Positions 13,675-27,121 of a DNA stretch of 64,000 bases are shown here, one piece after another. The notes under the pieces were generated by a model. The model was not told the DNA's origin and ran no database searches. It saw nothing but the letters and a program-made list of their open reading frames with translations. The stretch comes from Mycolicibacterium mengxianglii (GTDB taxonomy: Bacteria; Actinomycetota; Actinomycetes; Mycobacteriales; Mycobacteriaceae). The position numbers and the translations under genes are program-made. The stretch lies in the NCBI RefSeq assembly GCF_015710575.1, contig NZ_CP065373.1, positions 1,984,001 through 2,048,000 of the forward strand, in the 5' to 3' direction. The number at the start of each line of letters is the position of its first letter. Position 1 is the first letter of the stretch.

Positions 13675-15072
13675 TCATCCGGTGTCACCGCCCGGGTGGC
13701 CCCGGCTGCGGCTCTCGTCACCTGCTTGCGGAATGAACCGCTCCGGGTGGTGATAGGCATTCACGGTGCCGGGGAATCCGATGCCGAGTTGTGCGGGTGT
13801 GAGCCATTCGGTGTCGCCGTTGGCCAGTTTGCGCGTGCGCCAGCCCTGCCCGGCGAGTTTGTGGTGGAGCCCGCAGGCGAAGGTCAGATTGTCGATATCG
13901 GTGTTGCCACCGACGGACCATTCGTCGACATGGTGCACCTCGCACAGATATCCGGGCTTGTCGCAACCGGGGAACGTGCAACCCCGATCGAGCGCGTGCA
14001 AGACGATCCGCTGATCAGCCGAGGCGCACCGTTTGCTCCGGCCCAGCCACAACGGCCGCCCGGTCTGGTCGTCGAACACCGTCAGGTAGTGAAGGGCATG
14101 CCGGGCCATCCTGATCAGATCCGGGATGGGCAACAGCGTGCCACCGGCGGTGACGGCCTGCCCGGCGCCGGCCTGCAATTCGCTGACCGTGGTGGAGGCG
14201 ATGATCGTGACGGGCAGCCCGCGGTGAGTACCGAGTTTCGGATCGCCGAGTTGTCTGCGCACCAACGCATTCAGTGCGTCGTGGCGCCGCTGCGCCGGGC
14301 TGCGGGTATCGCGGCCGGCCGCGTCGGGGTCGGGTTCGCCGTCGGTGCAGGGGGATTCATCGGCGGGATTGTTCATGCCCGGTCTGGCGTCGTGGGCGAA
14401 GTGGGCGTCCAGCCCGGCGCGCAACTCGGGGGTGGCCCACAACGTACCTTTGCTCATCCCGTCGCGACGCTGCGGTCCCCAAGCGAATCCACTCAGGCGT
14501 GTGCGGTCAACATCGGTGAACACCCCATCGGGGTTCAGTGTGATGGAGAGTTTGTCGGCCAGCTCCTTGAGCTGATCCGGGCGCGTATTGGCGGCTTCTC
14601 GGGCTAGGAAGACTTCGGCCTTCTCCCGCTCGGTTGCGTCGACGTGGGCAGGCAGTCCCTTGAAGAAATCCAGGATCACCGTCAAATGCTCTTCGTCCAG
14701 AACTCCGGCATGCCACTGCGCGGCCGTGGCTCCCAGCGCCGGCGGTAACGGCTGACCCGTCAACGTGGTGCGCTCATCGATCTTCGCGGCGTGATCCAGC
14801 CGGTGTTTGGCCTCGGCGGTGGTGATACGCAGCCAGTCGGCCAACAACTGCTTGGGTCCACCACCGAGGACGGCCTGTTCATCGCCGATCAGCGTCGACG
14901 CCAGCGTGGTCCCCACCGCCAGCCCCCGACGCCGCGCCGTCTCCACGGCGTCGGCCCCCTCGAGCCGCTCCGCCAGTGACAAACCTTCCCAGTCGGGTTT
15001 GGTGATGCCCGCCAACACATCGAAGCCGGCGACGACCAACGCCACCGCCTCAGACACCGCATTCGCAAGCAT
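13675..15072 (-). CDS. DUF222/HNH endonuclease family protein (13E12 type)
   Basis: 465 residues, start ATG 15072. N-terminal two thirds are the helical DUF222 domain typical of mycobacterial 13E12-repeat proteins; the C-terminus has an HNH nuclease module with zinc ligands: CTFPGCDKPGYLCEVHHVDEW, then NLTFACGLHHKLA. These proteins are multicopy in actinomycetes, often mobile or hypervariable, and their biological role is unresolved. It sits at the left edge of the accessory block between the Rv2140c and pyrD homologues, with DnaA-box-like sequences just upstream. Confidence 0.9.
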   Translation of the reverse strand: MLANAVSEAVALVVAGFDVLAGITKPDWEGLSLAERLEGADAVETARRRGLAVGTTLASTLIGDEQAVLGGGPKQLLADWLRITTAEAKHRLDHAAKIDERTTLTGQPLPPALGATAAQWHAGVLDEEHLTVILDFFKGLPAHVDATEREKAEVFLAREAANTRPDQLKELADKLSITLNPDGVFTDVDRTRLSGFAWGPQRRDGMSKGTLWATPELRAGLDAHFAHDARPGMNNPADESPCTDGEPDPDAAGRDTRSPAQRRHDALNALVRRQLGDPKLGTHRGLPVTIIASTTVSELQAGAGQAVTAGGTLLPIPDLIRMARHALHYLTVFDDQTGRPLWLGRSKRCASADQRIVLHALDRGCTFPGCDKPGYLCEVHHVDEWSVGGNTDIDNLTFACGLHHKLAGQGWRTRKLANGDTEWLTPAQLGIGFPGTVNAYHHPERFIPQAGDESRSRGHPGGDTG

Positions 15073-15168: not shown

Positions 15169-15948
15169 CTAGGTGACTTCCATACCGTCGGACAACCGCG
15201 ACTCCGAGCGCACCAGCAGCCGGGTCCGATCGGCGCGAAACAGATCGACGCTGTACTCCACCGGGTGGCCGTGTTGGTCGTAACCGACGCGCTCCAACTT
15301 GAGCACGGGCGTTCCCGCCGGCTGTCCCAGCAGGGCGCCTTCGGTGACCGACAGCGACGCGATCTCGATCGACTCGTCCACCACATCGATACGGACGCCG
15401 AGGCGGCAGCGAAGGGTGATGTACATCGACGTCATCTCGGTGCGCAGCACCGCAGCCAGTTCGGGGCGCAGGTACATCTGCTCCAACGACAACGTTTCAC
15501 CGTCGGCGTGACGCAGCCGCAGCAGCGATACCGCCGACTGCTCCGGCGTCAGCCCCAGGGCACGGGTGACCTGCGGCTGCGGGGTCACCATTGCGGCCCT
15601 GATCACCGAGGTGCCATCTCGAAAACCCTGCTCCCGCAGGATCTCCGGGATTCCTTTGACAGTGTTGAGGCTACGCAGGACTCCACGGCTGCCGCAGTAG
15701 GGCTGGGACACGTGGGTCGAATCGTCCGGTATCGGGACAGTCGTGAGGTACGCGCCGCCGGTGCGCCCCTTGACCCGGCGAATGGTGCCGTCCTGCTCGA
15801 GTAACTCCAGCGCCTTACGCACCGTCGTCCGTGACGTGCCCAACCGCTCGGCCAGGACCCGCTCCGCGGGCAGACGGCTCTCGCCGCGGCCCGCGAGTTC
15901 GTCGGTCAGCCGCCGTAATGCCTCATGTGCATGTACGACCGCAAGCAT
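15169..15948 (-). CDS. GntR family regulator with UTRA domain (HutC subfamily)
   Basis: 259 residues from ATG 15948 (AGGAGC upstream); a longer frame from 16008 has no ribosome site. The winged helix-turn-helix is clear: SRLPAERVLAERLGTSRTTV and RKALELLEQDGTIRRVKGRT, followed by a UTRA-type ligand domain (LGLTPEQSAVSLLRLRHADG and later MTSMYITLRCRLGVRIDVVD). UTRA domains bind small metabolites such as phosphosugars, histidine intermediates or fatty acids. It is divergent from an eight-gene-span catabolic operon beginning at 16097 and is its likely repressor. Confidence 0.93.
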   Translation of the reverse strand: MLAVVHAHEALRRLTDELAGRGESRLPAERVLAERLGTSRTTVRKALELLEQDGTIRRVKGRTGGAYLTTVPIPDDSTHVSQPYCGSRGVLRSLNTVKGIPEILREQGFRDGTSVIRAAMVTPQPQVTRALGLTPEQSAVSLLRLRHADGETLSLEQMYLRPELAAVLRTEMTSMYITLRCRLGVRIDVVDESIEIASLSVTEGALLGQPAGTPVLKLERVGYDQHGHPVEYSVDLFRADRTRLLVRSESRLSDGMEVT

Positions 15949-16072
15949 GGCGGTGCTCCTTCCGTGCACAGTTGAGGGCACCGTATCGGCGCAAGGGGAG
16001 CACCGCATACCTACCGGCGGGCAGACACCGCGTATTTACATGGGCTTAACGTCGGCCTCACTGAACCAGAAA

Positions 16073-16080
16073 TGGTCTAA
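16073..16080. promoter_or_regulatory. Half operator-like site for the GntR/HutC regulator
   Basis: TGGTCTAA lies 17 bases before the IMPase ATG. HutC/DasR-type GntR proteins recognise TGGTCTAGACCA-like palindromes; here only the left half is well conserved (the right half reads ACGCGA). This is a weak candidate within the GntR-IMPase divergent region. Confidence 0.25.
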
Positions 16081-16096
16081 CGCGACAGTCGGTGAG

Positions 16097-16909
16097 ATGA
16101 CCGACTCCCGTGCCCGCCGCATCGAGCTCGGCTTTGCGATGGCCACCGAGGCCGGCGACATCTCGCGTCGCTACTTCGAAGACCAGGACCTCGACGTCGA
16201 CCTCAAAGCGGACGGATCGCCGGTCACCGAGGCCGACCGGCAAATCGAACTCCGGCTGCGCGAAGCCGTCAGTGCAGAATTCGGTGACGACGGATTCACC
16301 GGCGAAGAGTTTCCGGACACTCCCGGCACCAGCGGATACCGCTGGATCGTCGACCCCATCGACGGCACCAAATCCTTCGTTCGCGGCGTGCCTCTCTATG
16401 CCAACCTGATCGCCCTGCAAGAAGGCGACGAGATCGTCTTCGGCATCATCAACCTGCCCAGCGCCGGGATCCTCGTCCACGCCGAAAAAGGCAAGGGCTG
16501 CTGGCGAAACGGCACCCGGGTGTCAGTATCGGACCGGCCCAGCCTCGACGGCGCGTACGTGATGGCGACCTGGCTGGAGGACTGGGATCCGTCGGTGATC
16601 TCCGACCTGCACAGCCAGAACGTGGTGCTGCGCACCTGGGGTGACGCGTTCGGCTACGCAATGGTGGCCTGCGGACACGCCGACGCCGTGGTCGACTACA
16701 CCGCACGCGTCTTCGACCTCGCACCCATGCCGGTGATCCTCAGGGAGGCCGGCGGGCGATTCACCAGCCTGGACGGTCGCGAGGTCTTCGACGCCGGCAA
16801 CGGCATCGCCAGCAACGGCCGCATCCACCACCTGCTGTTGCCGTGGGTGTCACCGACATTCGATCACTCAGGACCTCAAGACCACCTAGGGAAGGGCATT
16901 CGCGTATGA
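16097..16909 (+). CDS. Inositol monophosphatase family protein (HisN/IMPase-like)
   Basis: 270 residues, ATG 16097 with GGTGAG upstream. Mg2+-dependent IMPase motifs: TGEEFP (metal Glu), WIVDPIDGTKSFVRG (metal Asp pair and phosphate loop), and WGDAFGYAMVACG typical of histidinol-phosphatase-like members. The last metal motif, usually W-D-x-A, reads VFDLAP: the Asp is kept, the Trp is replaced by Phe. The enzyme removes phosphate from a small polyol or amino-alcohol phosphate. It is the first gene of the operon; its end overlaps the next start (ATGA), coupling translation. In an operon with two kinases, either dephosphorylation of an intermediate or relief of phosphosugar stress is plausible. 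Confidence 0.88.
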   Translation: MTDSRARRIELGFAMATEAGDISRRYFEDQDLDVDLKADGSPVTEADRQIELRLREAVSAEFGDDGFTGEEFPDTPGTSGYRWIVDPIDGTKSFVRGVPLYANLIALQEGDEIVFGIINLPSAGILVHAEKGKGCWRNGTRVSVSDRPSLDGAYVMATWLEDWDPSVISDLHSQNVVLRTWGDAFGYAMVACGHADAVVDYTARVFDLAPMPVILREAGGRFTSLDGREVFDAGNGIASNGRIHHLLLPWVSPTFDHSGPQDHLGKGIRV

Positions 16910-17223
16910 CAAGTACACGGGAGTTCATCAAGGGGCTGTCGCGGCGCGGCATCGTCGGATTCTTCGGCGCGTTGTATGCCGTCTCCCTGCTGTTCGCGCT
17001 GTTCCCACCGCTGTACCTGTGGGGCAGCGGAATTCGCGTCGACGTGCTCGGCATTCCCTTCGCGATCATGTACTGGATCATCAACGCCCTGGTGCTGGGG
17101 CTGACCCTGACCGCGTTCTACATCGTCGAGGACATCCGCGGCGAACTCGACAGTGACTCAACCGAACGCGAATCGACCGAACGCGAATCGACCGAACCCC
17201 TCACCGAAACCCTCGGAGGCTGA
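16906..17223 (+). CDS. Small two-helix membrane protein, symporter accessory subunit
   Basis: 105 residues; ATG 16906 overlaps the preceding stop and follows AGGGAAGGG. Two membrane segments are visible (about residues 16-38 and 46-74), the second containing GIPFAIMYWIINALVLGLTL, followed by a hydrophilic tail that contains a tandem STERE repeat. Small proteins of this kind (DUF3311/DUF485-like) regularly precede sodium:solute symporters and are thought to be accessory subunits. The symporter starts one base after this stop, so the pair is translated together. Confidence 0.75.
   Translation: MTSTREFIKGLSRRGIVGFFGALYAVSLLFALFPPLYLWGSGIRVDVLGIPFAIMYWIINALVLGLTLTAFYIVEDIRGELDSDSTERESTERESTEPLTETLGG
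17161..17197 (+). repeat. 15-bp tandem repeat encoding STERE
   Basis: ACCGAACGCGAATCG occurs twice in direct succession (17161-17175, 17176-17190) with a third partial copy (ACCGAAC). Being a multiple of three, it keeps the frame and encodes repeated S-T-E-R-E in the cytoplasmic tail of the small membrane protein. Confidence 0.85.
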
Positions 17224-17224
17224 T

Positions 17225-18784
17225 ATGTGGATCATGCTCAGCATGCTGGCGGTGTTCTACGCCATCGTCGTCGGCATCCTGTACGTCACGCAGCAGAAGA
17301 CCGCGCCCACCTTCGACGAGTACGCCGTGGGCGGTCGCAGCTACGGCCCCTGGTATGTGGCGATGAGCTACGTCAACTCCTGGTGGCCGGGATCGACGTT
17401 CATCGCGTTCTTCGGATTGGCCGCCGGCGCGGGTGTTTTCGGCCTCTACGGCCTGGCCTACTCCTCGCTGGGCGTGGCGATGATGTACTTCATGGCCACC
17501 AGGGCGTGGCGCTGGGGCAAGAAGTACGACCTGCGCTCACAGCCAGATCTGCTGGGAAAACGCTACAACTCCTCAGCGGTACGGGTGATCGCCAGCGTCA
17601 TCGGTATCGCCTCGATCTTCCCCTGGGTGGTGCTCGGCATGCAGGCGCTGGGCTCGGTGTTCGAGATCGCCAGCGACGGGGCATGGTCGCTGACCACGTG
17701 CCTGATCGTCGGGCTGGCAGTGATCATCATCCGGCAGTATTGGACCGTGCGGATGGGTATGCGCGGCCTGATCATGACCGACGCGTTCCAGGGCACCGTC
17801 GCCTACGTGTTCTCGGCGGTCGTGTGCCTGGTGCTGCTGTCCGGTGTGGCCGGTGGGCCCATCAGTTTCGCCGCCCTGAATGACGTCACCGACGAGGTGT
17901 TGACCCTGCCCGGCGACGGCGGGTCCTACGGGCCGCTGTACATTTTTGCGCTCATCTTCACCGGTGTCATCGGATCGCTCTGCTGGCCAACGAGTTTCCA
18001 GCGCATCTACACCGCGTCGAGCGTGCGCTCGGTGAAGTCGGGCACGTTGTGCACAGTCCTGATCTCGGGGGTGTTCTACACCCTGCTGATGCTGGTCGGC
18101 ATCGCCGCCACCGTCATGCCCGACGTGTTCGAGAACCCGCAGATGGGCTGGTTCACCATCATGAGCGACTACGGCGGCACCTGGTTGCTCGGCCTGGGTG
18201 TCACCATCGTGTTCGCCGCGTCCATGGGACACATCGACGGCAGCGTCCAGGTATGCGGGCTGCAGATCGCCAACGACCTGGTGAACACCACCAAGCGCCC
18301 TCTGAGCGACAAGCAGCTGACCAGGGTCGCCAAGACGTCGATGATGGGCTTCATGGCCGCTGCCGGTGTGGTCGCGTACCTGACCTTCAGCATGGAACGC
18401 CTGCAGCTGTTGGCCCAGATTTCCTACCAGGGCATCGTCCAGCTGGCGGTGCCGTTGTTCCTCGGCATCTTCTGGCGCGGCGGCAACAAGCAGGGCGCGA
18501 TCGGCGGCATGGTGTCCGGGTTCGTCGTCGCGATGGTGCTGACCTGGATCTACCCCGACGACATCAGGGGACTCGGCAGCCTCACCGGCGGAATCGTCGG
18601 CATTGTGGTGAACTTGCTGGTGTTCCTGGCAGCCGCCTGGTTCATCAAATCCGACGATGACGAAAAGGCAAGGGTGTCCGCGATGTTCGACGTAGCGAGG
18701 ACTTCCGTACGGGACGCGGCCCCGGCGGCCGACGAATCGCTCGAGGACAAGGTGCAGACGGCCGCCGTGGAGGGCAGCGCGTGA
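17225..18784 (+). CDS. Sodium:solute symporter (SSS family)
   Basis: 519 residues. ATG 17225 is chosen because GGAGG (17214-17218) precedes it and the protein then opens directly with the first membrane helix; the longer frame from 17153 reads through the previous gene's repeat. About 13 hydrophobic helices, with SSS landmarks: [20 protein letters not shown] near the N-terminus, the R-x-[KR]-YDL region ([16 protein letters not shown]), and [15 protein letters not shown]. Such carriers import small metabolites with Na+ (sugars, proline, pantothenate, ureides, carboxylates). Neighbouring hydrolases suggest an amide- or ureido-containing substrate; that is inference. Confidence 0.92.
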
Positions 18785-20049
18785 CAGCAGTTCCGGGGGA
18801 CTTCAGCGACGAATCCTTCCTGGCCGATTTCGCCGAATTGTCGGCGATCGGGGCAACACCTTCCGGCGGAGTGCACCGGGAGGCGGCCACTGTGGCCGAC
18901 GGCCAGGCCCGCGACTGGTTGCGGGCCTGGTTCGACCGGCACGGCCTGGCCACCGTGGTGGATTCCGTCGGCAACATGTACGGCTGTGCGGAGCTGCTGC
19001 CCGAGGCACCGTATGTGCTTGTCGGGTCGCATCTGGACAGCCAGCCCACCTCCGGCCGCTTCGACGGTGCCTACGGCGTCCTGGCGGCGGCGTACGCGGC
19101 TGGCCGGCTGGCCGCAGACCCGCCCGATGGCACGCGCCTCAACGTCGCGGCGGTGAACTGGTTCAACGAGGAGGGGTCCCGGTTCTCGCCCAGCCTGATG
19201 GGTAGCGGGGTCTACATCGGCAAGTTCGACGCCGCAACGATCCTCGACACCGCGGCGCTGGACGGGACCACCGTGCGAGAGGCGCTGACCGCCATCGGGT
19301 TTCACGGTTCTGATACGCCGCCGCGGGCTGACGCGTTCGCGGAGATCCACATCGAACAGGGCCGCACCCTGGTCGACGAGGGGCTCGACATCGGTGTGGT
19401 GACACGGAACTGGGCCGCCTACAAGTACGTCATCACCGTCGTCGGCGAACAATCCCACACCGGCGCCACCCACATGCGGTACCGCCGCGACGCCCTGGTG
19501 GGGGCCAGTCAGGTGGTGTTGGCGGTGCGGGCGGTCGCCCGGGAGTTCAACGAACTCGCAGAGGGTTCGGTGCTGAGTTCGGTCGGCCAGTTCACCGTCG
19601 AGCCCAACTCGCCGGTGGTGGTGCCCGCCAAGGTGCGTCTGGCCGCCGACCTGCGGTCACTGGACGCCGAGACACTCGAGAAGGCACACACGCGATTGAC
19701 CGCCGAACTCAACGAGATCGAGGCCGAAGGCGAAGTGCAGGTCAGCGTGGAGTCGGCGACACTGCGGCCGTCGAAGGCCTACCCGGACGCCGGTGCCGCG
19801 CTGGCCGGTGCCGTGGCCGACGACCTCGGACTGCGATGGCGCGAGCTGCCCACGATGGCCGGACACGACTCGGTCAATCTGTGCGACGTGGTCCCCACTG
19901 TGATGCTGTTCGTACCCAGCGTCGACGGAATATCGCACAACGAAAAGGAATTCACCACTGATGCCCAGATGGTCGCCGGGGTTCAGATGCTGACCGCCAC
20001 CGCCGGGCGGATGCTTGCCGGCGCACTCGAGGTGGCGGCGCACGCGTGA
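18781..20049 (+). CDS. M20 allantoate/N-carbamoyl-amino-acid amidohydrolase family protein
   Basis: 422 residues; GTG 18781 overlaps the symporter stop. Metal ligands of the AllC/beta-ureidopropionase/HyuC group are in place: GSHLDSQ (His-84), GRFDGAYGV (Asp-95), [10 protein letters not shown] (Glu-130/131), EIHIEQG (His-190), and a C-terminal [11 protein letters not shown]is. Such dizinc enzymes remove a carbamoyl or ureido group (allantoate, N-carbamoyl amino acids, ureidopropionate). No allantoinase or dihydropyrimidinase is nearby, so the source of the substrate is open; the adjacent amidase and kinases suggest a multi-step degradation route. Confidence 0.9.
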
Positions 20050-21467
20050 GTTCCCCCGGCGTCGATGAGCTCCTCGACGGTGATACCACCGCTCTCGGCG
20101 AGTCCTACCGCTGCGGTGCGGTGACACCGGAGGCGGTGGTCGAACACACGCTGGCCCGCATCGCCGAGCGCAACCCGGCGATCAACGCTCTGGCCTATCT
20201 GGACGCCGACGGCGCCCGGGCTGCCGCCAAGGCGTCGGCGCGGCGTTGGGCGGCGGGAACCCCGCTCAGCGGCCTCGATGGTGTGCCGGTGACCGTCAAG
20301 GACAGTGTGCACACCACCGGAATGCCGTGGCGGCACGGCTGTGCGGCGAACCGGGACCTGCCGGACTCCACGTTCGACGCTCCGCCCGCGGCGCGGCTCA
20401 AGGAGGCCGGCGCGGTGATCCTCGGCAAGACCACGATGCCCGATTTCGGCATGATGGCCGCCGGTGTGAGTTCGTTGTACGGCATCACCCGCAATCCATG
20501 GCAGCTCTCCCGCAATACCGGCGGCTCCAGTGCGGGTGCCGGTGCCAGTCTCGCGGCCGGAATCGGCTTCGGCTCGGTGGGTTCCGATATCGCCGGGTCG
20601 GTGCGGCTGCCCGCCGGGCACTGCGGGCTGGTGGCGCTCAAGCCGACCCAGGGCCGCATCCCGCATCTGGCGCCGTCCACCATGCGTTCGGCCGGGCCGA
20701 TGGCCCGCACGGTCGACGACGTGATCCTGCTCTACGACGTGCTGAGCCGCCCTGACCAACGCGACGTGTGGAGTCTGGCCCCCGAGAGCGGTGAAACCAA
20801 CCGAGAGCCGCTGTATCCCTTCGGCTTCCGTATCGGGGTGCTCACCGAGCTGGTGCCCGGCTACGTCGCCGCCGACCCGGTGGCGGAGGTGGTCAGCGCC
20901 GCGGCCGCCGCGCTCTCCGATGGGGGAGCCACGGTCGCCACGATGCCCCCGGTGTTCACCGACACCGACCCGTACCCGGCGCTGGATCGGGTGTTCCAGG
21001 TCCGCGCCGTCGCCGAACTGCAGTCGATCGCCGCGGACCGCCGAGATCAGGTGCACCCGGTGATCCGACAGTGGTGTGCGCCGGCCGCGGACTTCTCGGC
21101 TGCCGACCTGACCCGCGACACCGAAGCCGTCGCCCGCTCGGCGGAGGTGATCCGTGCGGCGTGCGCCGAGTTCGACTTCGTGCTTGCCCCGGTGCTTCCG
21201 ATGGTAGGCTTCGACGCCGAAGAGTGTGGCGCTGACCCCTCACAACCGTTGGGACACTGTGGTTTCACCGCGTGGTTCAACCAGACCGGCGCCCCGGCAT
21301 CGGCGGTGTGCTTCGGCTTCTCGGGCGGGATGCCCGTGGGCGTGCAGGTCATCGGACCGCGGTTCGCCGACCGGGCGGTACTGCGACTGACGAAGTGGCT
21401 CGAAAATGCTCGTGGTTTCAGCATCACCTGGCCCAAACCGGTGGCCGCGGTAGGAGGTACTCGATGA
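20046..21467 (+). CDS. Amidase signature family protein
   Basis: 473 residues; GTG 20046 overlaps the previous stop. Amidase-signature catalytic elements are all visible: Lys-85 in [11 protein letters not shown], the cis-Ser loop [16 protein letters not shown] (Ser-161/162), and the nucleophile Ser-185 in [12 protein letters not shown]. The family hydrolyses primary and substituted amides and carbamates. No signal peptide; cytosolic. Position after the carbamoylase and before the kinases suggests successive hydrolytic steps on one imported compound. Confidence 0.92.
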
Positions 21468-22384
21468 CAGTCACCACGCAACTGCGCCACCTCGGCCTGA
21501 CCCTGGATGGCGAGGTGACCACCGACCCCGCCCCGTCGATGGCCAGTCCCAGCTGGTGGGGCGCGGACTCGGAATGCCTCGACGTGCGTTCAGATTCCAC
21601 GTCGATGTTCGTCAAGACCATGATCGGCCACGCCAAGGCCTACGTGGACATCCCGCAAGCGTTCGCCGCTGCCACCGAGGCGGGCGCACTCGGGGTGGGG
21701 CCCGTGGTGCTCGCGTCCGACGCCGACACCGGGATGCTGGTGATGGAGAACCTCACCGAGAGTGCCGCCACCGCGACCCTGGACAAGTTCGACGACGACG
21801 CCGCGCTGGAGCGGTTGATCGCGGTGCGCACCCGGGTGCGGGAGATGACCGCCACGATCACCCGCGCCGCAACGGTGTTCGACGACATCCGGGACCTGAT
21901 TGCTCTCGCTGAGGCCAACAAGGTGGGGTTACCCAAGGACTTCGACTGGATGATCCGTCTGGTCGACATGGCCGAACAGCGGATCCTGGCAAGCGGTTTC
22001 GACACCGTACCGGCTCACGGTGACGGCAATGTCTCCAACGTCCTGCTGGTCGAGGACGGGCGGACCCTGCTGGTGGACTGGGACGTGGCGGCGGTGATGG
22101 ACCCGCTGCAGGACATCGGTGTGCTGCTGGCCGAGGTGCGCCCGTTCGATTCGTCGGCCCGGTCGGCATTCGAAATAGCTTGGGGTTCCTACGATCAGAG
22201 CTTGTTCGACCGCGCCCGGGTGTACGGGATCGTCGACTGCGTGCGGTGGGGCCTCATCGGCGCCTACGCCGACGCCGCTCGGCCCGGAACCCTGGAGTAC
22301 TCGAAGCTGTCAGACTGGCAGTTCCTGCGGGCGCGGGCCGGATTGGCCGACGTGCACTTCCACGACCGATTGGAGAGTCTGTGA
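21464..22384 (+). CDS. Phosphotransferase, APH/choline-kinase-like (first of two)
   Basis: 306 residues from ATG 21464, preceded by a strong AGGAGG; this start overlaps the amidase stop. Kinase-like fold: ATP lysine region SMFVKTMIGH, Brenner loop VPAHGDGNVSNVLL (HGDxxxxN) and metal-binding LLVDWDVAAVMDPLQDIG (DWD in place of DFG). These are the hallmarks of aminoglycoside phosphotransferase/choline kinase enzymes, which phosphorylate hydroxyl groups of small amines. The N-terminal glycine-rich loop is poorly conserved. Paired with a second kinase of the same superfamily but clearly different sequence. Confidence 0.85.
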   Translation: MTVTTQLRHLGLTLDGEVTTDPAPSMASPSWWGADSECLDVRSDSTSMFVKTMIGHAKAYVDIPQAFAAATEAGALGVGPVVLASDADTGMLVMENLTESAATATLDKFDDDAALERLIAVRTRVREMTATITRAATVFDDIRDLIALAEANKVGLPKDFDWMIRLVDMAEQRILASGFDTVPAHGDGNVSNVLLVEDGRTLLVDWDVAAVMDPLQDIGVLLAEVRPFDSSARSAFEIAWGSYDQSLFDRARVYGIVDCVRWGLIGAYADAARPGTLEYSKLSDWQFLRARAGLADVHFHDRLESL

Positions 22385-23367
22385 CGGTGACTGACGATCC
22401 CGCCGAGGCGCGCCCGGACAATGGCGGTGACCGCACGGTCGGGTCTGCGCGCACGGCTGTGGAACGCCGCGTCGAAGAGGTGCTCGCCCAGATCGACCGG
22501 TGGCAGGGCCGCACCATGAGCTACGCCCCGGTGCTGGGCGGCATCATGAACAGCAACTGGCGCATCACCGTGGAAGGGCAGGACACCCGGTACTTCCTGA
22601 AGATCCCCGGCGACGGCAGCGATGCATTCATCGACCGGACACTGGCCAACGAGGCCGCCCGCCGGGCCGGGGACCGCGGTATCGGTGCCGAGGTGGTGTT
22701 GTTCGATCCCGCCACCGGCGTCGAGGTGATCGAATTCCTCGAGGGGTACCGGGCCTGCACCAACGGCGACTTCAAGCGGCCTGAAGTGCCCCGCGAGATC
22801 ATCGGGATCTACCGGACCCTGCACGACGGCGAACTTCTCAGCGCCACCAAGACGATGTTCGACATGATCGACGAGCACCTGGCACAGGCCGAGGAGATCG
22901 GGGTGCGGTTGCCCGCCGACGCCGCCGTGATCTTCGGGGAGTACCAGCAGGCCAAGTCGGCGCTGCTGGCCTCGGGGCTTGATCTTGTTGCCTGCCACAA
23001 TGATCCAATGCCGGGCAATTTTCTGGTGGCCGACGGCAAACCGATGCGGATGGTGGACTACGAGTTCGCCTCCAACAACGAGCGTGCCTACGAGCTCGCC
23101 CTGCTGGTGGCAGAGATGTTCTACGGCGAGGAGCAGCTGCTCGAACTCGTCGAAGATTTCTACGGCCGCGTCGATTTCGCCACGTGCGCGCGGGTGCAGG
23201 TGTGCTGTGCGCTGGCCGACACCAAGTGGGGACTGTGGGCGGTTGTCAACCAGCAGCTCAACACCACCTGGGATTTCGACTACCACAAGTACGGCTACTG
23301 GAAGCTGATGCGGGCAAGGATGAAGATGTCGGATCCGCGGTGGCCGTTCTGGGTCAAGGCGCTCTGA
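22381..23367 (+). CDS. Phosphotransferase, choline/ethanolamine-kinase-like (second of two)
   Basis: 328 residues; GTG 22381 overlaps the stop of the first kinase. Motifs: GGIMNSNWRI (nucleotide loop), RYFLKIPGDGSDAFIDR (ATP Lys), LVACHNDPMPGNFLV (Brenner loop, H-N-D variant) and PMRMVDYEFASNNERAYELA (metal Asp). The HNDxxxxN and DYE forms are typical of choline/ethanolamine kinases, distinguishing it from its neighbour. Together with the IMPase-like phosphatase it suggests a phosphorylated intermediate in the operon's pathway. Last gene of the operon; its stop codon lies inside a 15-base repeat. Confidence 0.87.
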   Translation: MTVTDDPAEARPDNGGDRTVGSARTAVERRVEEVLAQIDRWQGRTMSYAPVLGGIMNSNWRITVEGQDTRYFLKIPGDGSDAFIDRTLANEAARRAGDRGIGAEVVLFDPATGVEVIEFLEGYRACTNGDFKRPEVPREIIGIYRTLHDGELLSATKTMFDMIDEHLAQAEEIGVRLPADAAVIFGEYQQAKSALLASGLDLVACHNDPMPGNFLVADGKPMRMVDYEFASNNERAYELALLVAEMFYGEEQLLELVEDFYGRVDFATCARVQVCCALADTKWGLWAVVNQQLNTTWDFDYHKYGYWKLMRARMKMSDPRWPFWVKAL

Positions 23368-23489: not shown

Positions 23490-23499
23490 GTTAGTCGTA

Positions 23500-23594
23500 A
23501 CCCACGCGGGAGTGCACACCGAGTGCGCTGAGAGGACGGCTGGTGGCCGTCGACCGTACGAACCTGACCGGGTAATGCCGGCGTAGGGAGTGAA
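23500..23594 (+). promoter_or_regulatory. TPP riboswitch (THI element)
   Basis: The leader carries the conserved TPP-aptamer blocks in order: GCGGGAGTGC (23506-23515), GCGCTGAGAGG (23525-23535) with the invariant CTGAGA, a variable stem-loop, ACGAACCTGACCGGGTAATGC (split here as ACCTGA, CGGGTAATGCCGGCG) and GTAGGGAGTGAA abutting the YkoE start. The aptamer binds thiamine pyrophosphate. Because GGGAGTGAA at the 3' edge also contains the ribosome site of the first gene, control is probably by sequestration of translation initiation. Confidence 0.95.
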
Positions 23595-23597
23595 GTG

Positions 23598-24227
23598 ATG
23601 AATATCGATGTTTCCGAGCACGCCGGCGGGACCCGCCGCGTGTACCGCTGGCGCGTCGTCGACATCGTCGTAGCCAGTGTGCTTGCCGTCGCGGCCGGCC
23701 TGGTCTTCGTGATGTGGAACATCGCGTCCAACCCGGTCAGCGCACCCCTGAGTGCGCTGCTGCCTGGGCTGCAGGCACTGCTGGGCGGGGGCTGGCTCTT
23801 TGCCGGAGTCCTCACCGCACTGGTGATCCGTAAGCCGGGTGCGGCGCTCTACGGCGAGCTGGTCGCTGCCAGCGTCTCCGCCCTGGTCGGCAACCAGTGG
23901 GGGGTGCTGACCCTGGAATCAGGACTGGTCCAGGGCTTGGCCGCCGAGCTCGTGTTCGCGGTGTTCTGGTATCGAGTATGGAACCTGCCGGTCGCGGTGC
24001 TGTCCGGCGCAGCTGCCGGATTGGCGTTGGCGATCAACGATCTGATTCTCTGGTACCCGGGTTCAGCGGCGGCCTTTTCCGCCATCTACATCGGCTCGGG
24101 GATCGTCTCCGGAGCTGTCCTCGCAGGCGGCCTGTCGTGGTACGTGGTGCGGGGTCTGGCGAAAACCGGGGCGTTGTCGCGCTTCCAATCCGGCAGAACG
24201 GGGTCGCACCGCGGCGTACCGCAATGA
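23598..24227 (+). CDS. ykoE: ECF transporter substrate-binding S component, YkoE type (thiamine precursor)
   Basis: 209 residues from ATG 23598 (a GTG one codon earlier is also possible). About six membrane helices and a YkoE-like start (YRWRVVDIVVASVLAVAAGL) with later LVAASVSALVGNQWG. YkoE binds thiamine or its pyrimidine precursor and forms an ECF transporter with YkoD and YkoC. Direct control by the TPP riboswitch and coupling to ykoD (ATGA overlap) confirm the assignment. Confidence 0.9.
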   Translation: MNIDVSEHAGGTRRVYRWRVVDIVVASVLAVAAGLVFVMWNIASNPVSAPLSALLPGLQALLGGGWLFAGVLTALVIRKPGAALYGELVAASVSALVGNQWGVLTLESGLVQGLAAELVFAVFWYRVWNLPVAVLSGAAAGLALAINDLILWYPGSAAAFSAIYIGSGIVSGAVLAGGLSWYVVRGLAKTGALSRFQSGRTGSHRGVPQ

Positions 24228-25714
24228 CCGAGATCGGTTGGCCCAGTGGAGGAGTCGCTGTCGAAGCGCAGGGATGGCACTGGCGCCATGCCGGCCGCTC
24301 AGGGTGGGCCCTGACAGACCTCGATCTTGCGATCGAGCCAGGCGAGCGGGTGTTGCTTCTCGGCGCCAGTGGCTCCGGCAAATCGACGCTGCTGCAAGGC
24401 ATTGCCGGCCTGCTCGACAGTGACGAGGACGGCGACGAAAAGGGCCGCCTGCTGGTCGACGGGGTGGCACCCACACAACGCCGCTCCCGCATCGGGATGG
24501 TGTTGCAGAATCCAGAATCGCAGGTGATCCTGTCCCGCGTCGGCGATGACGTGGCGTTCGGCATGGAGAACTTCAACGTCGACCGAGAACAAATATGGCC
24601 GAGGGTGCGACAGGCGCTGAGCGCCGTCGGGCTCGAACTGCCGTTGATGCGAGACACCGCAAAGCTTTCCGGCGGTCAACAGCAGCGGCTGGCGCTGGCC
24701 GGCGTGCTCGCGATGCACCCCGGCCTGCTCCTGCTCGACGAGCCGACGGCGAACCTCGACCAGGCCGGTGTCCTCGAAGTCCGGGACGCAGTCGGTGCGA
24801 CAGCCCAACAATCCGGCGCGACACTGATCGTCATCGAACACCGCACCTCGGTCTGGCTTCCCGTCGTCGACCGGGTGATCGTGCTGGGCGACGGCGGCCG
24901 GGTCATCGCCGACGGCCCACCCGGTGTCACCATCGCCGCGCACCGCGACCACCTGAGGAGAGACGGTGTCTGGGTGCCGGGGGCCGATCTTCCTGAGATC
25001 ACCCGCCACCAGTCCCCAGGTGCGCCGCTGCTGACGGCCGCAGACCTGGCCATCGGGTACCGCCGCGGCCGGCAGGCCCATCAGCTGGACTTCGAAATCT
25101 GCCGGGGCGCAACGACAGTCGTCACAGGCCCCAATGGCGCCGGGAAATCCGCCTTGGCTCTCACCCTGGGCGGGCTGCTTCCACCACGCGCGGGGCGGCT
25201 CACCGCGCACGACATGTTCGCCCCCGCGGCCCACCGCCGCGAACCCATCAAGTGGCGGTCACGCGAACTGCTCACCCGAATCGGCAGTGTGTTCCAGAAC
25301 CCCGAGCATCAGTTCCTCGCCGGTACTGTGCGTGCTGAGCTGGAGCTCGGTCCGCGCGCGTTGAAGCAGGACCCAGCCACGGTCGCCGAAGTCTGCGATG
25401 AGCTGCTGGACAGATTGCGACTGGCGCACCTGGCCGACGTCAACCCGTACACCCTGTCGGGGGGTGAGAAACGCCGGCTCTCCGTGGCGACCGTACTGGC
25501 CACCCGCCCCGGTCTGATCATTCTCGACGAGCCCACGTTCGGCCAGGACCGCAACACCTGGGAAGAACTGGTGCGCCTGCTCGCCGAGATCGCCGATGAG
25601 GGCACGGCGGTGGTGGCGATCACCCACGACCTCGACTTCGCCGGCCTGCTCGCCGACAGCCAGATCGAACTGCGCGCCTGGGACTTCGAGGCCACCCGGG
25701 AAGTTTCGTGCTGA
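24224..25714 (+). CDS. ykoD: ECF transporter tandem ATPase, YkoD type
   Basis: 496 residues; ATG 24224 overlaps the ykoE stop. Two fused ABC ATPase domains: the first with Walker A LLGASGSGKST, signature KLSGGQQQRLALAG and Walker B LLLLDEPTANLD; the second with Walker A VTGPNGAGKSAL, signature TLSGGEKRRLSVAT and LIILDEPTFGQD. Q-loops (VLQNPESQ, VFQNPEHQ) have the NPEx-Q form typical of ECF energising modules. Powers uptake of the vitamin precursor through YkoC/YkoE at the inner face of the membrane. Confidence 0.93.
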   Translation: MTEIGWPSGGVAVEAQGWHWRHAGRSGWALTDLDLAIEPGERVLLLGASGSGKSTLLQGIAGLLDSDEDGDEKGRLLVDGVAPTQRRSRIGMVLQNPESQVILSRVGDDVAFGMENFNVDREQIWPRVRQALSAVGLELPLMRDTAKLSGGQQQRLALAGVLAMHPGLLLLDEPTANLDQAGVLEVRDAVGATAQQSGATLIVIEHRTSVWLPVVDRVIVLGDGGRVIADGPPGVTIAAHRDHLRRDGVWVPGADLPEITRHQSPGAPLLTAADLAIGYRRGRQAHQLDFEICRGATTVVTGPNGAGKSALALTLGGLLPPRAGRLTAHDMFAPAAHRREPIKWRSRELLTRIGSVFQNPEHQFLAGTVRAELELGPRALKQDPATVAEVCDELLDRLRLAHLADVNPYTLSGGEKRRLSVATVLATRPGLIILDEPTFGQDRNTWEELVRLLAEIADEGTAVVAITHDLDFAGLLADSQIELRAWDFEATREVSC

Positions 25715-26493
25715 ACGCCGCCGTCGAGCTGTCCCCGACCCGGCCCGTTGGGATCAACCCGGTCGCGAAGCTGTTGGCCGCGCTCGTGATCGCCGCCGGG
25801 CTGGTCCTCAGCGTCGACTGGGTGTCAGCGCTGACGGCGCTGGTACTGGAGATCGCACTCGTGCTGGTGCTGCGAGTACCGTTGCGGTCCTTGCTCACCC
25901 GAGGTGCTGTCCTCGTGCTGGCCGCCGGCCTCACGGCGGTCACCATCCTGCTCTACGGGGAACCCGGCGGCGCTGTGCATTGGCATTTCTTCCTCATCAC
26001 CGTCAGCGACGGTTCGATCACGTTGGCGGTGGCGACTTTTCTTCGGGTGCTGGCCATCGCCCTGCCATCGGTCTTTCTGTTCATCGACGTCGACCCCACC
26101 GAGCTCGCCGACGGTCTCGGGCAGATCCTGCGGCTCCCGGCCCGGTTCGTGCTCGGCGCACTCGCGGGCGCCCGGCTGGTCGGGCTGCTCGGCCAGGACT
26201 GGCGCTATCTCGGGTACGCGCGCAGAGCGCGGGGGGTGGCCGACCAGGACCGCGTGCGGCGCGCCGCCGGCCAGGCTTTCGCGCTGCTGGTGTCTGCCAT
26301 TCGGCGGGGATCGACGCTGGCCACCGCGATGGAGGCGCGCGGTTTCGGAGCTCACCCGACGAGGACCTGGGCACGGCCGTCGGCAATCGGCTGGCGCGAT
26401 GTCGCCTTGATCTGCGCGGCTTTCGCCATCATTGCGGTCGCGCTGACCACCTCGGTCGGCACCGGACATTGGAACTTCATTGGGAGTCGATGA
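25708..26493 (+). CDS. ykoC: ECF transporter transmembrane T component, YkoC type
   Basis: 261 residues; GTG 25708 overlaps ykoD by 7 bases. Begins [18 protein letters not shown] as EcfT proteins do, has 5-6 membrane helices, and the two coupling-helix motifs with Ala-Arg signatures: YARRARG and TAMEARGFG. It couples ATP hydrolysis by YkoD to YkoE toppling. A P-loop kinase gene overlaps its 3' end by 14 bases. Confidence 0.9.
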   Translation: MLNAAVELSPTRPVGINPVAKLLAALVIAAGLVLSVDWVSALTALVLEIALVLVLRVPLRSLLTRGAVLVLAAGLTAVTILLYGEPGGAVHWHFFLITVSDGSITLAVATFLRVLAIALPSVFLFIDVDPTELADGLGQILRLPARFVLGALAGARLVGLLGQDWRYLGYARRARGVADQDRVRRAAGQAFALLVSAIRRGSTLATAMEARGFGAHPTRTWARPSAIGWRDVALICAAFAIIAVALTTSVGTGHWNFIGSR

Positions 26494-27121
26494 CATCGTT
26501 CGGGGGCTGTCCGAGACCGGCGCCCGAACTGTCTTGATCGACGGTCGGTCGGGGTCGGGCAAGTCAACGCTGGCCGAGCAAATCCATCAGGCCTGGAAGT
26601 GCAGTGCGGTAGTCCGGCTCGACGACATCTACCCGGGCTGGGACGGCCTGGCGTGGACCGTCGAGCACATCCGCACCGCACTGCTGGAACCTCGTTTTGC
26701 CGGGCGCGCCGGCCGGTGGCGGGGCTGGGACTGGGCGACGGGGGCGCCCGCCGACTGGCACACCGTCGAACCGGGGCAGCGCCTGATCGTCGAAGGTGTC
26801 GGGGCGCTGACCGCGGCTAGCCGCGCACTCGCCGATCTGGGCATCTGGGTGGACGCTTCCGAGGCGGACCGGAAACGCCGCGCACTGGCCCGTGACGGTG
26901 ACACCTACCGGCCCCATTGGGATCGATGGGCCGCCCAGGAGGACGACTTTCTCGCCCGATATGACCCACGGTCGGTCGCCGACTGGATAGTAGAGCGAAA
27001 TGAGTTCGCGCCCATCACCTCCGGCGAGGAGTTCGGCTACCGCCGGGCAGCGCCCGAACCCACCGCGTCGGCCAGCGACGAGAACCCACCGTCATGCAGG
27101 CGACGGGCCAACCCGTCGTGA
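26480..27121 (+). CDS. P-loop nucleoside-kinase-like protein of unknown function
   Basis: 213 residues from TTG 26480, overlapping ykoC by 14 bases and so very likely under the same TPP riboswitch. Walker A is [18 protein letters not shown] (residues about 18-35), followed by [13 protein letters not shown], the DD-x-Y motif of uridine/pantothenate-type kinases, LIVEGVGAL (Walker-B-like) and a lid region [18 protein letters not shown]. The family resembles uridine kinase/phosphoribulokinase. No substrate can be assigned from sequence; association with thiamine uptake suggests a salvage kinase, which is inference. Its last 85 bases are antisense to the end of pyrD. Confidence 0.75.

Follow-up and report, generated by a model that had tools for sequence, protein, structure and literature searches.

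The window analysed here is a stretch of 64,000 nucleotides (positions 1,984,001-2,048,000) in the 5.96-Mb single-contig genome of Mycolicibacterium mengxianglii, and our subject is an operon that runs through it on the plus strand from 16097 to 23367, opposite a divergent regulator of the GntR/UTRA type. The tight array of seven genes, which a first-pass annotation of this DNA had described, was confirmed by the open reading frames (ORFs), the Pfam matches and the DNA of the junctions; it encodes an IMPase-family phosphatase, a small membrane protein, a sodium:solute symporter (SSS), an M20 hydrolase, an amidase and two kinases, hereafter K1 and K2 (Table 1). The enzyme families are familiar ones; their combination is new, and it is both conserved and regulated. 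Together they probably form a catabolic pathway, so far undescribed, whose substrates would be capped amino alcohols.

The operon and its recurrence in other genomes

Table 1. Genes and DNA motifs of the operon and its regulator, numbered from the first letter of the window
Feature	Position	Strand	Basis or remark
GntR/UTRA (HutC-type) regulator	15169..15948 (longest ORF to 16008)	-	Pfam UTRA 7.2e-29, GntR 1.4e-10
Putative GlnR-like box TTTAC-n6-TTAAC (AC-n9-AC)	16035..16050	+	30 nt upstream of operator core
Predicted GntR/UTRA operator AACCAGAAATGGTCTA	16064..16079	+	conserved core, unique in genome
IMPase-family phosphatase, nearest HisN-type histidinol-phosphatase	16097..16909	+	PF00459 8e-47
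Small membrane protein, 106 aa, partner of symporter	16906..17223	+	homologue in 34/54 loci
Sodium:solute symporter (SSS), importer	17225..18784	+	PF00474 1.3e-19
M20 hydrolase, hydantoinase/carbamoylase type	18781..20049	+	PF01546 1.7e-18
Amidase-signature hydrolase	20046..21467	+	PF01425 4.5e-82; NF005450 479.5 bits, cut-off 458
Kinase K1, APH fold	21464..22384	+	PF01636 6e-14
Kinase K2, choline/ethanolamine-kinase-like	22381..23367	+	PF01633 4.5e-19

With the starts chosen, the junctions are all 4-base overlaps, save for the 1-base gap between the small protein and the symporter (the first two junctions were read in the DNA). The ORF list gives longer frames for the IMPase, the small protein, the symporter, K1 and K2; the starts used are those of the first-pass annotation or those that fit the overlaps, and that of K1 is backed by an identical database protein of 306 aa. 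No Pfam or NCBIfam match was found for the small membrane protein. Because the regulator ORFs of two related loci, L047 and L057, begin with MLALEHA, we moved the start of the window regulator to codon 21 of its longest ORF, which is probably the true start and lies 148 bp from the operon.

Related loci were found via K2 and kept if the K2 match exceeded 200 aa at an identity of at least 34%, weaker K2-like loci (about 25-33% identity) being excluded. The 58 loci so obtained, less 4 duplicates, left 54, comprising 41 from Actinomycetota and 13 from Pseudomonadota, with truncated contigs counted. For plasmids, 12 of the 96 K2-matching records were examined, picked for variety, and the counts describe this collection and not frequencies in nature; the label cut-offs also miss weak members, such as the HAD gene (29%) and K2 (37%) of locus L082. 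It had been proposed that these genes should occur together in other genomes if they form one system, and they do: K1 adjoins K2 in all 54 loci, the amidase lies nearby in 44, the M20 hydrolase likewise in 44, and one or the other in 51. The importer is an SSS in 38 loci and a peptide-type ABC system, with its binding protein, in 8, and never both; in the same way the phosphatase is a HisN-type IMPase in 36 loci and a HAD enzyme in 7, and never both. This either/or choice of importers and phosphatases argues that the pathway requires both import and dephosphorylation, whichever enzyme supplies them. Nor is the gene set a chance assembly, for in two phyla the paired kinases keep most of their partners even though K2 ranges from 35 to 82% identity to the window copy.

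The module is patchy yet widespread. A K2 scan of genome contigs gave 31 named loci in Mycobacterium/Mycolicibacterium, Rhodococcus/Rhodococcoides, Tsukamurella, Dietzia, Nocardioides, Pseudonocardia, Corynebacterium and one Comamonadaceae metagenome-assembled genome, and the matching plasmid records come mostly from Agrobacterium and Rhizobium. Within the window's family K2 is found in 25 of 401 genomes (E up to 1e-60), and within its genus a close K2 is found in 2 of 37, the window genome included. One genome carries, besides a full cluster (L138), a second amidase-K1-K2 copy (L137, G728:C1:749500-768500), whose amidase matches only as two short pieces.

Probable operator and GlnR-like box

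The conserved operator core, ACCAGAAATGG, is present in 30/30 distinct regulator-IMPase intergenic regions; counted by locus, it occurs in all 34 that carry this GntR and in none of the 20 that lack it. The site at 16064-16079 is the only one in the window genome at up to 1 mismatch (the reversed-pattern control gave 0), and in Nocardioides the core precedes both divergent units of the module. This element is probably the operator of the GntR/UTRA regulator.

Upstream of it lies a putative box of the form AC-n9-AC, which is the GlnR motif (PMC3662644). The box sits 29-30 nt upstream of the operator in 28 of the 30 distinct regions, the window included, where Markov-resampled sequences would lead one to expect 0.0014 per region; in these motif counts related genomes are not independent, and the genera spanned differ by 20-45% in proteins. 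Taken together, the conserved operator and the GlnR-like box suggest that the operon serves nitrogen scavenging.

On the far side of the regulator, a DUF222/HNH gene (13675-15072, minus strand) separates it from a PEBP-family gene. Because the PEBP gene directly abuts the regulator in L047 (2908/2910), the DUF222/HNH gene looks like a lineage-specific insertion.

Kinases, hydrolases and ethanolamine-type partners

The first-pass annotation called the two kinases dissimilar, and a separate origin for them was not borne out: K1 and K2 align with each other over 260 aa, 27% of them identical (E about 1e-18), which marks them as diverged paralogues. Of the 46 rows aligned for K1, among them a single duplicate, 45 retain the catalytic and the metal-binding Asp; Lys74, Asp208, Asn213 and Asp226 of K2 are invariant in 16/16 aligned sequences, and the best solved relative of K2 is 3dxq (9.7e-30). 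The K1 homologue of L082 (G091) has lost both Asp residues, yet it adjoins an intact K2, and this hints that a degenerate K1 may persist as a structural partner.

The M20 enzyme reaches 293.8 bits against TIGR01879 (cut-off 204), which places it in the hydantoinase/carbamoylase family, and 437.8 bits against NF006772 (cut-off 424), which NCBIfam names allantoate amidohydrolase. It thus resembles the family of carbamoylases, beta-ureidopropionases and allantoate amidohydrolases, from which it differs in standing beside kinases and in one motif, PNxxN: of the 39 aligned members, actinobacterial ones have Val or Ile (26) or Ser (1) in place of the second Asn, which the 12 Pseudomonadota sequences all keep. 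The Arg of the D-x-R motif, which in the yeast enzyme binds the carboxylate of N-carbamoyl-beta-alanine, is present in 39/39. Among solved structures the amidase matches GatA only (E up to 1e-40), and the ABC binding protein of other loci has only distant likeness to proteins that bind dipeptides or agrocinopine. In 14/54 loci the cluster has another amidase gene nearby, AMI2, whose best model is NF004815 at a score below cut-off; it lies downstream in L051-L056, L058, L072 and L077 and upstream in L057.

Two unrelated phosphatases have histidinol-phosphatase as their best named match, and histidinol phosphate is a 2-amino-alcohol phosphate, which hints at a shared substrate type among amino-alcohol phosphates. 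The IMPase counterpart on the Agrobacterium plasmid pAspH13-3a clears the HisN cut-off at 286.7.

Terminal enzymes accompany the kinases in relatives. A class-III phospholyase-type gene (AT) is found in 18/54 loci and EutB in 6/54, with both in one (R. ruber), so that EutBC or AT stands beside the kinases in 23/54 loci in two phyla. On pAspH13-3a the order is ABC importer, DeoR, M20, K1, K2, hisN-like IMPase, EutB and EutC, the latter two passing their NCBIfam cut-offs (EutB 672.9, cut-off 554; EutC 290.4, cut-off 230); a Shinella plasmid has amidase, DeoR, M20, K1, K2, hisN, EutB and EutC, and Paracoccus yeei has M20, K1, K2, EutB and EutC. The hairy-root plasmid pRi1724 and pAoF64/95 carry EutB, a gene of the N-formylglutamate amidohydrolase family and an amidase nearby. 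In R. ruber a gene order of the window type is followed by AT, EutB and EutC, and in the AT loci, which belong to Rhodococcus, Tsukamurella, Dietzia and Corynebacterium, AT stands in the place of EutBC. The one AT searched against solved structures, from Corynebacterium L076, matches the phospholyase 5g4i at 318 bits and 6tor, an ethanolamine-phosphate phospho-lyase of the human type, at 312, the next enzyme scoring 172. What EutBC and AT in relatives have in common is ethanolamine, either free or as its phosphate, or else a vicinal amino alcohol close to it.

The window genome holds one EutB (C1:1494635-1495951, at 1.49 Mb) and, with E up to 1e-40, 5 matches to AT, of which the top ones are 55-57% identical; AT homologues lie at 3.40 and 4.46 Mb. 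Across the 401 genomes of the family EutB is present in 24 of the 25 K2-positive genomes vs 223 of the 376 K2-negative ones, and the 25th K2-positive genome, without EutB, has AT in the cluster. The absence of an ammonia-lyase from the operon had been read as an argument against an ethanolamine route; the EutB and phospholyase-type genes of related loci and the EutB of this genome leave that argument unsupported. The other part of that annotation, a single catabolic operon combining import, amide or ureido hydrolysis, phosphorylation and a pathway phosphatase, is supported, and its substrate is probably an amide- or ureido-bearing amino alcohol.

Proposed pathway and competing explanations

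We lean, with somewhat better than even confidence, towards a nitrogen-scavenging unit for an N-acylated or N-carbamoylated compound of the ethanolamine type, in which import would be followed by phosphorylation, deblocking, dephosphorylation and deamination by enzymes encoded elsewhere. The SSS would bring in an N-substituted ethanolamine-type amino alcohol (an amide or ureide), the K1/K2 pair would phosphorylate the hydroxyl of the capped molecule, the amidase and/or the M20 enzyme would strip the N-acyl or N-carbamoyl group to leave an amino-alcohol phosphate, e.g., phosphoethanolamine, and the HisN-like phosphatase would free the amino alcohol. In this genome the last step could fall to EutB or to the distant phospholyase-type genes, and in relatives to EutBC or phospholyase of the same locus; GntR/UTRA would act as repressor and the nitrogen regulator GlnR probably as activator. 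Substrate candidates would presumably include gamma-glutamylethanolamide, N-acetylethanolamine, 2-ureidoethanol, guanidinoethanol and peptaibol amino alcohols, and no open-licence full text found names the substrate. The EutBC loci without AT (L098, L100, L101, L104 and L106) retain both kinases and, in 5/5, the IMPase. Since phosphorylating and then dephosphorylating free ethanolamine would be pointless, the kinases probably act on the still-capped amino alcohol, with the hydrolases next and the phosphatase last. The sequences themselves show that the module is conserved, that the kinase motifs are intact, that phosphatases and terminal enzymes are swapped and that two DNA motifs are conserved; from them we infer the substrate, the order of kinase, hydrolase and phosphatase, and all binding and catalysis.

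Several observations weigh against this reading. Neither EutB nor EutC is among the ORFs of the window operon, a phospholyase is likewise absent from it by ORFs and Pfam, and 31 of the 54 loci have neither EutBC nor AT nearby. The Fisher p of 7.6e-5 for the association of EutB with K2 is naive and ignores kinship. At the cut-offs used no phosphatase is seen in 11/54 loci, some of them contig ends, and neither hydrolase in 3, namely L074 (at a contig edge), L107 and L136 (only AT-K1-K2). As to the likeness to histidinol-phosphatase, the window IMPase scores 227 bits against TIGR02067 (HisN), under the cut-off of 275.15, the HAD-IB phosphatase of P. oryzihabitans scores 243.7 bits, under its cut-off of 280, with histidinol-phosphatase as best model, and the Corynebacterium HAD is of the YqaB type, with a hexitol phosphatase and not histidinol-phosphatase as best model. 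The GlnR-like box is missing from L069 and L140, both of the Tsukamurella type, and the SDR gene found in 10/54 loci is also compatible with 1-amino-2-propanol.

Compared with known systems, the operon would share its likely end with the eut (EutBC) route, as the EutB genes of relatives and of this genome indicate, and differs in what it puts ahead of that end, namely an importer, two kinases, amide hydrolases of two types and a phosphatase, with no EutBC in the operon. It also resembles the route of a kinase followed by a phospholyase, through the AT homologues whose best solved relatives are 5g4i and 6tor; unlike that route, the module has two paralogous kinases instead of one and adds amide hydrolases and a phosphatase, and the window operon is without a phospholyase. 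The view that the cluster matches no characterised route has held so far, none with this gene set having been found in searches of open-licence full texts, some of them directed at GlnR or microcompartments (the subscription literature was not searchable).

The strongest competitor, to which we give a real though minor chance, reverses the order of the first steps: the amidase and the M20 enzyme would free the amino alcohol, K1/K2 would phosphorylate it for a phospholyase, and the phosphatase would deal with another product or with overflow. Hydrolysis first would suit the known kinase-plus-phospholyase logic of amino-alcohol breakdown and agrees with AT in 18/54 loci and with L136, which is AT-K1-K2 without either hydrolase. 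It does not explain why the EutBC loci without AT keep both kinases and the IMPase, for EutBC needs no kinase and the detour through a phosphate would be futile for free ethanolamine.

A more specific form of the preferred order, phosphorylation-gated hydrolysis, is put forward tentatively, as doubtful. Here an obligate hetero-oligomer of K1 and K2 would phosphorylate the neutral hydroxyl of an N-carbamoyl- or N-acyl-ethanolamine, the conserved Arg of the M20 enzyme would read the phosphate, binding it in place of the carboxylate of N-carbamoyl-beta-alanine, and the phosphatase or phospholyase would then remove it. N-carbamoyl-ethanolamine phosphate is close in shape to N-carbamoyl-beta-alanine, and the two kinases, which adjoin in 54/54 loci, would have arisen by duplication.

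Unlikely, in our judgement, is a variant of the RMM-type pathway, also named AAUM (excerpt of PMC8007038), for 1-amino-2-propanol or aminoacetone that would be shell-less in most genomes. According to the excerpt of PMC4207490, RMM loci hold an SDR, a phosphotransferase, an aminotransferase, GntR and hydrolases, and the module shares with them a gene of the class-III aminotransferase fold (18/54 loci), SDR (10/54), GntR and the logic of an APH-family kinase. In one relative, G343 (L083/L096), K2, K1, the amidase and SDR even lie beside GntR, microcompartment (BMC) shell genes, AT and an aldehyde dehydrogenase. Against this stand what may be another kinase subfamily, another importer, and EutBC in some relatives, which is not in the pathway as those excerpts describe it. 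K1 matches the APH kinase of the window genome's own RMM-like locus at only 26% over 108 aa (E 0.02) and K2 gives no meaningful match to it, this reference being the own-genome kinase and not the characterised M. smegmatis enzyme. That locus (L092, G000:C1:3388000-3406000, at 3.39 Mb), with GntR, SDR, an APH kinase, an amino-acid permease, a phospholyase-type gene and an acyl-CoA synthetase, has the look of a 1-amino-2-propanol/aminoacetone pathway without a shell, so the genome already has one of that kind. Another phospholyase-type gene lies at G000:C1:4452000-4470000 (L093), opposite a divergently oriented APH kinase that is 59% identical to that of L092. A microcompartment was rejected for the operon, the window genome having 0 matches to the BMC domain PF00936 (the control was positive in 2 of 14 genomes) and a BMC gene being found in 1/54 loci.

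The stretch 3651-9298 of L096, in which the shell genes, the phospholyase-type gene and the aldehyde dehydrogenase lie by SSS, SDR, amidase, K1 and K2, is possibly a new microcompartment variant. The two genus-mates of G343 in the locus table show no shell gene within the stretch fetched, and the association with a shell is a single case.

We think it very improbable that the operon is a ureide or purine-related nitrogen route of the allantoate kind, with the ethanolamine genes of relatives a coincidence. The NCBIfam name of the M20 enzyme, given at 437.8 bits over 424, speaks for such a route, as does the P. oryzihabitans copy, which adjoins allophanate hydrolase, formamidase and an oxalurate gene. 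The operon region has no ORF for an allantoinase, the PNxxN Asn is replaced in 27 of the 39 M20 enzymes, and allantoin or ureide as the main substrate was rejected on the kinases, which would be superfluous for allantoate, and on the EutBC or AT that accompany them.

Thiamine salvage, suggested by a thiamine pyrophosphate (TPP) riboswitch (23496-23606, 60.5 bits over 54.3) and a YkoE-type gene (PF09819, 23595-24227) after the operon and by a weak ThiK likeness of K2 (TIGR02721, 40 bits, cut-off 299), is hardly credible and was rejected, since the riboswitch lies downstream of the operon and is found in 0/7 related loci examined, Mycobacterium L047, L048, L050 and L057 among them, and none of the other locus tables shows YkoE as a neighbour. 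The stretch 23496-27121, with the riboswitch followed by YkoE-type, ABC ATPase and CbiQ-type genes and a P-loop kinase-like ORF, is a neighbouring unit for the uptake of thiamine precursors that is not conserved beside the operon.

If the preferred reading of a unit for capped ethanolamine-type compounds is true, the module would be an upstream arm of ethanolamine metabolism, through which bacteria could draw on ethanolamine bound up in amides or ureides, the kinases priming hydrolysis. Functions would then be gained for two kinase families that are now orphans, for a subfamily of M20 enzymes and for two families of amidases, all at present labelled by fold only. Phosphorylation-gated hydrolysis, if it holds, would give a general feed of capped amino alcohols into ethanolamine metabolism, spread over soil actinobacteria, rhizobia and plasmids of the Ri/Ti type. 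The module as such occurs in soil mycobacteria, rhodococci, rhizobia, Paracoccus, Pantoea and hairy-root (Ri) and related plasmids, and such a spread of hosts implies that an abundant soil or plant compound probably awaits identification.

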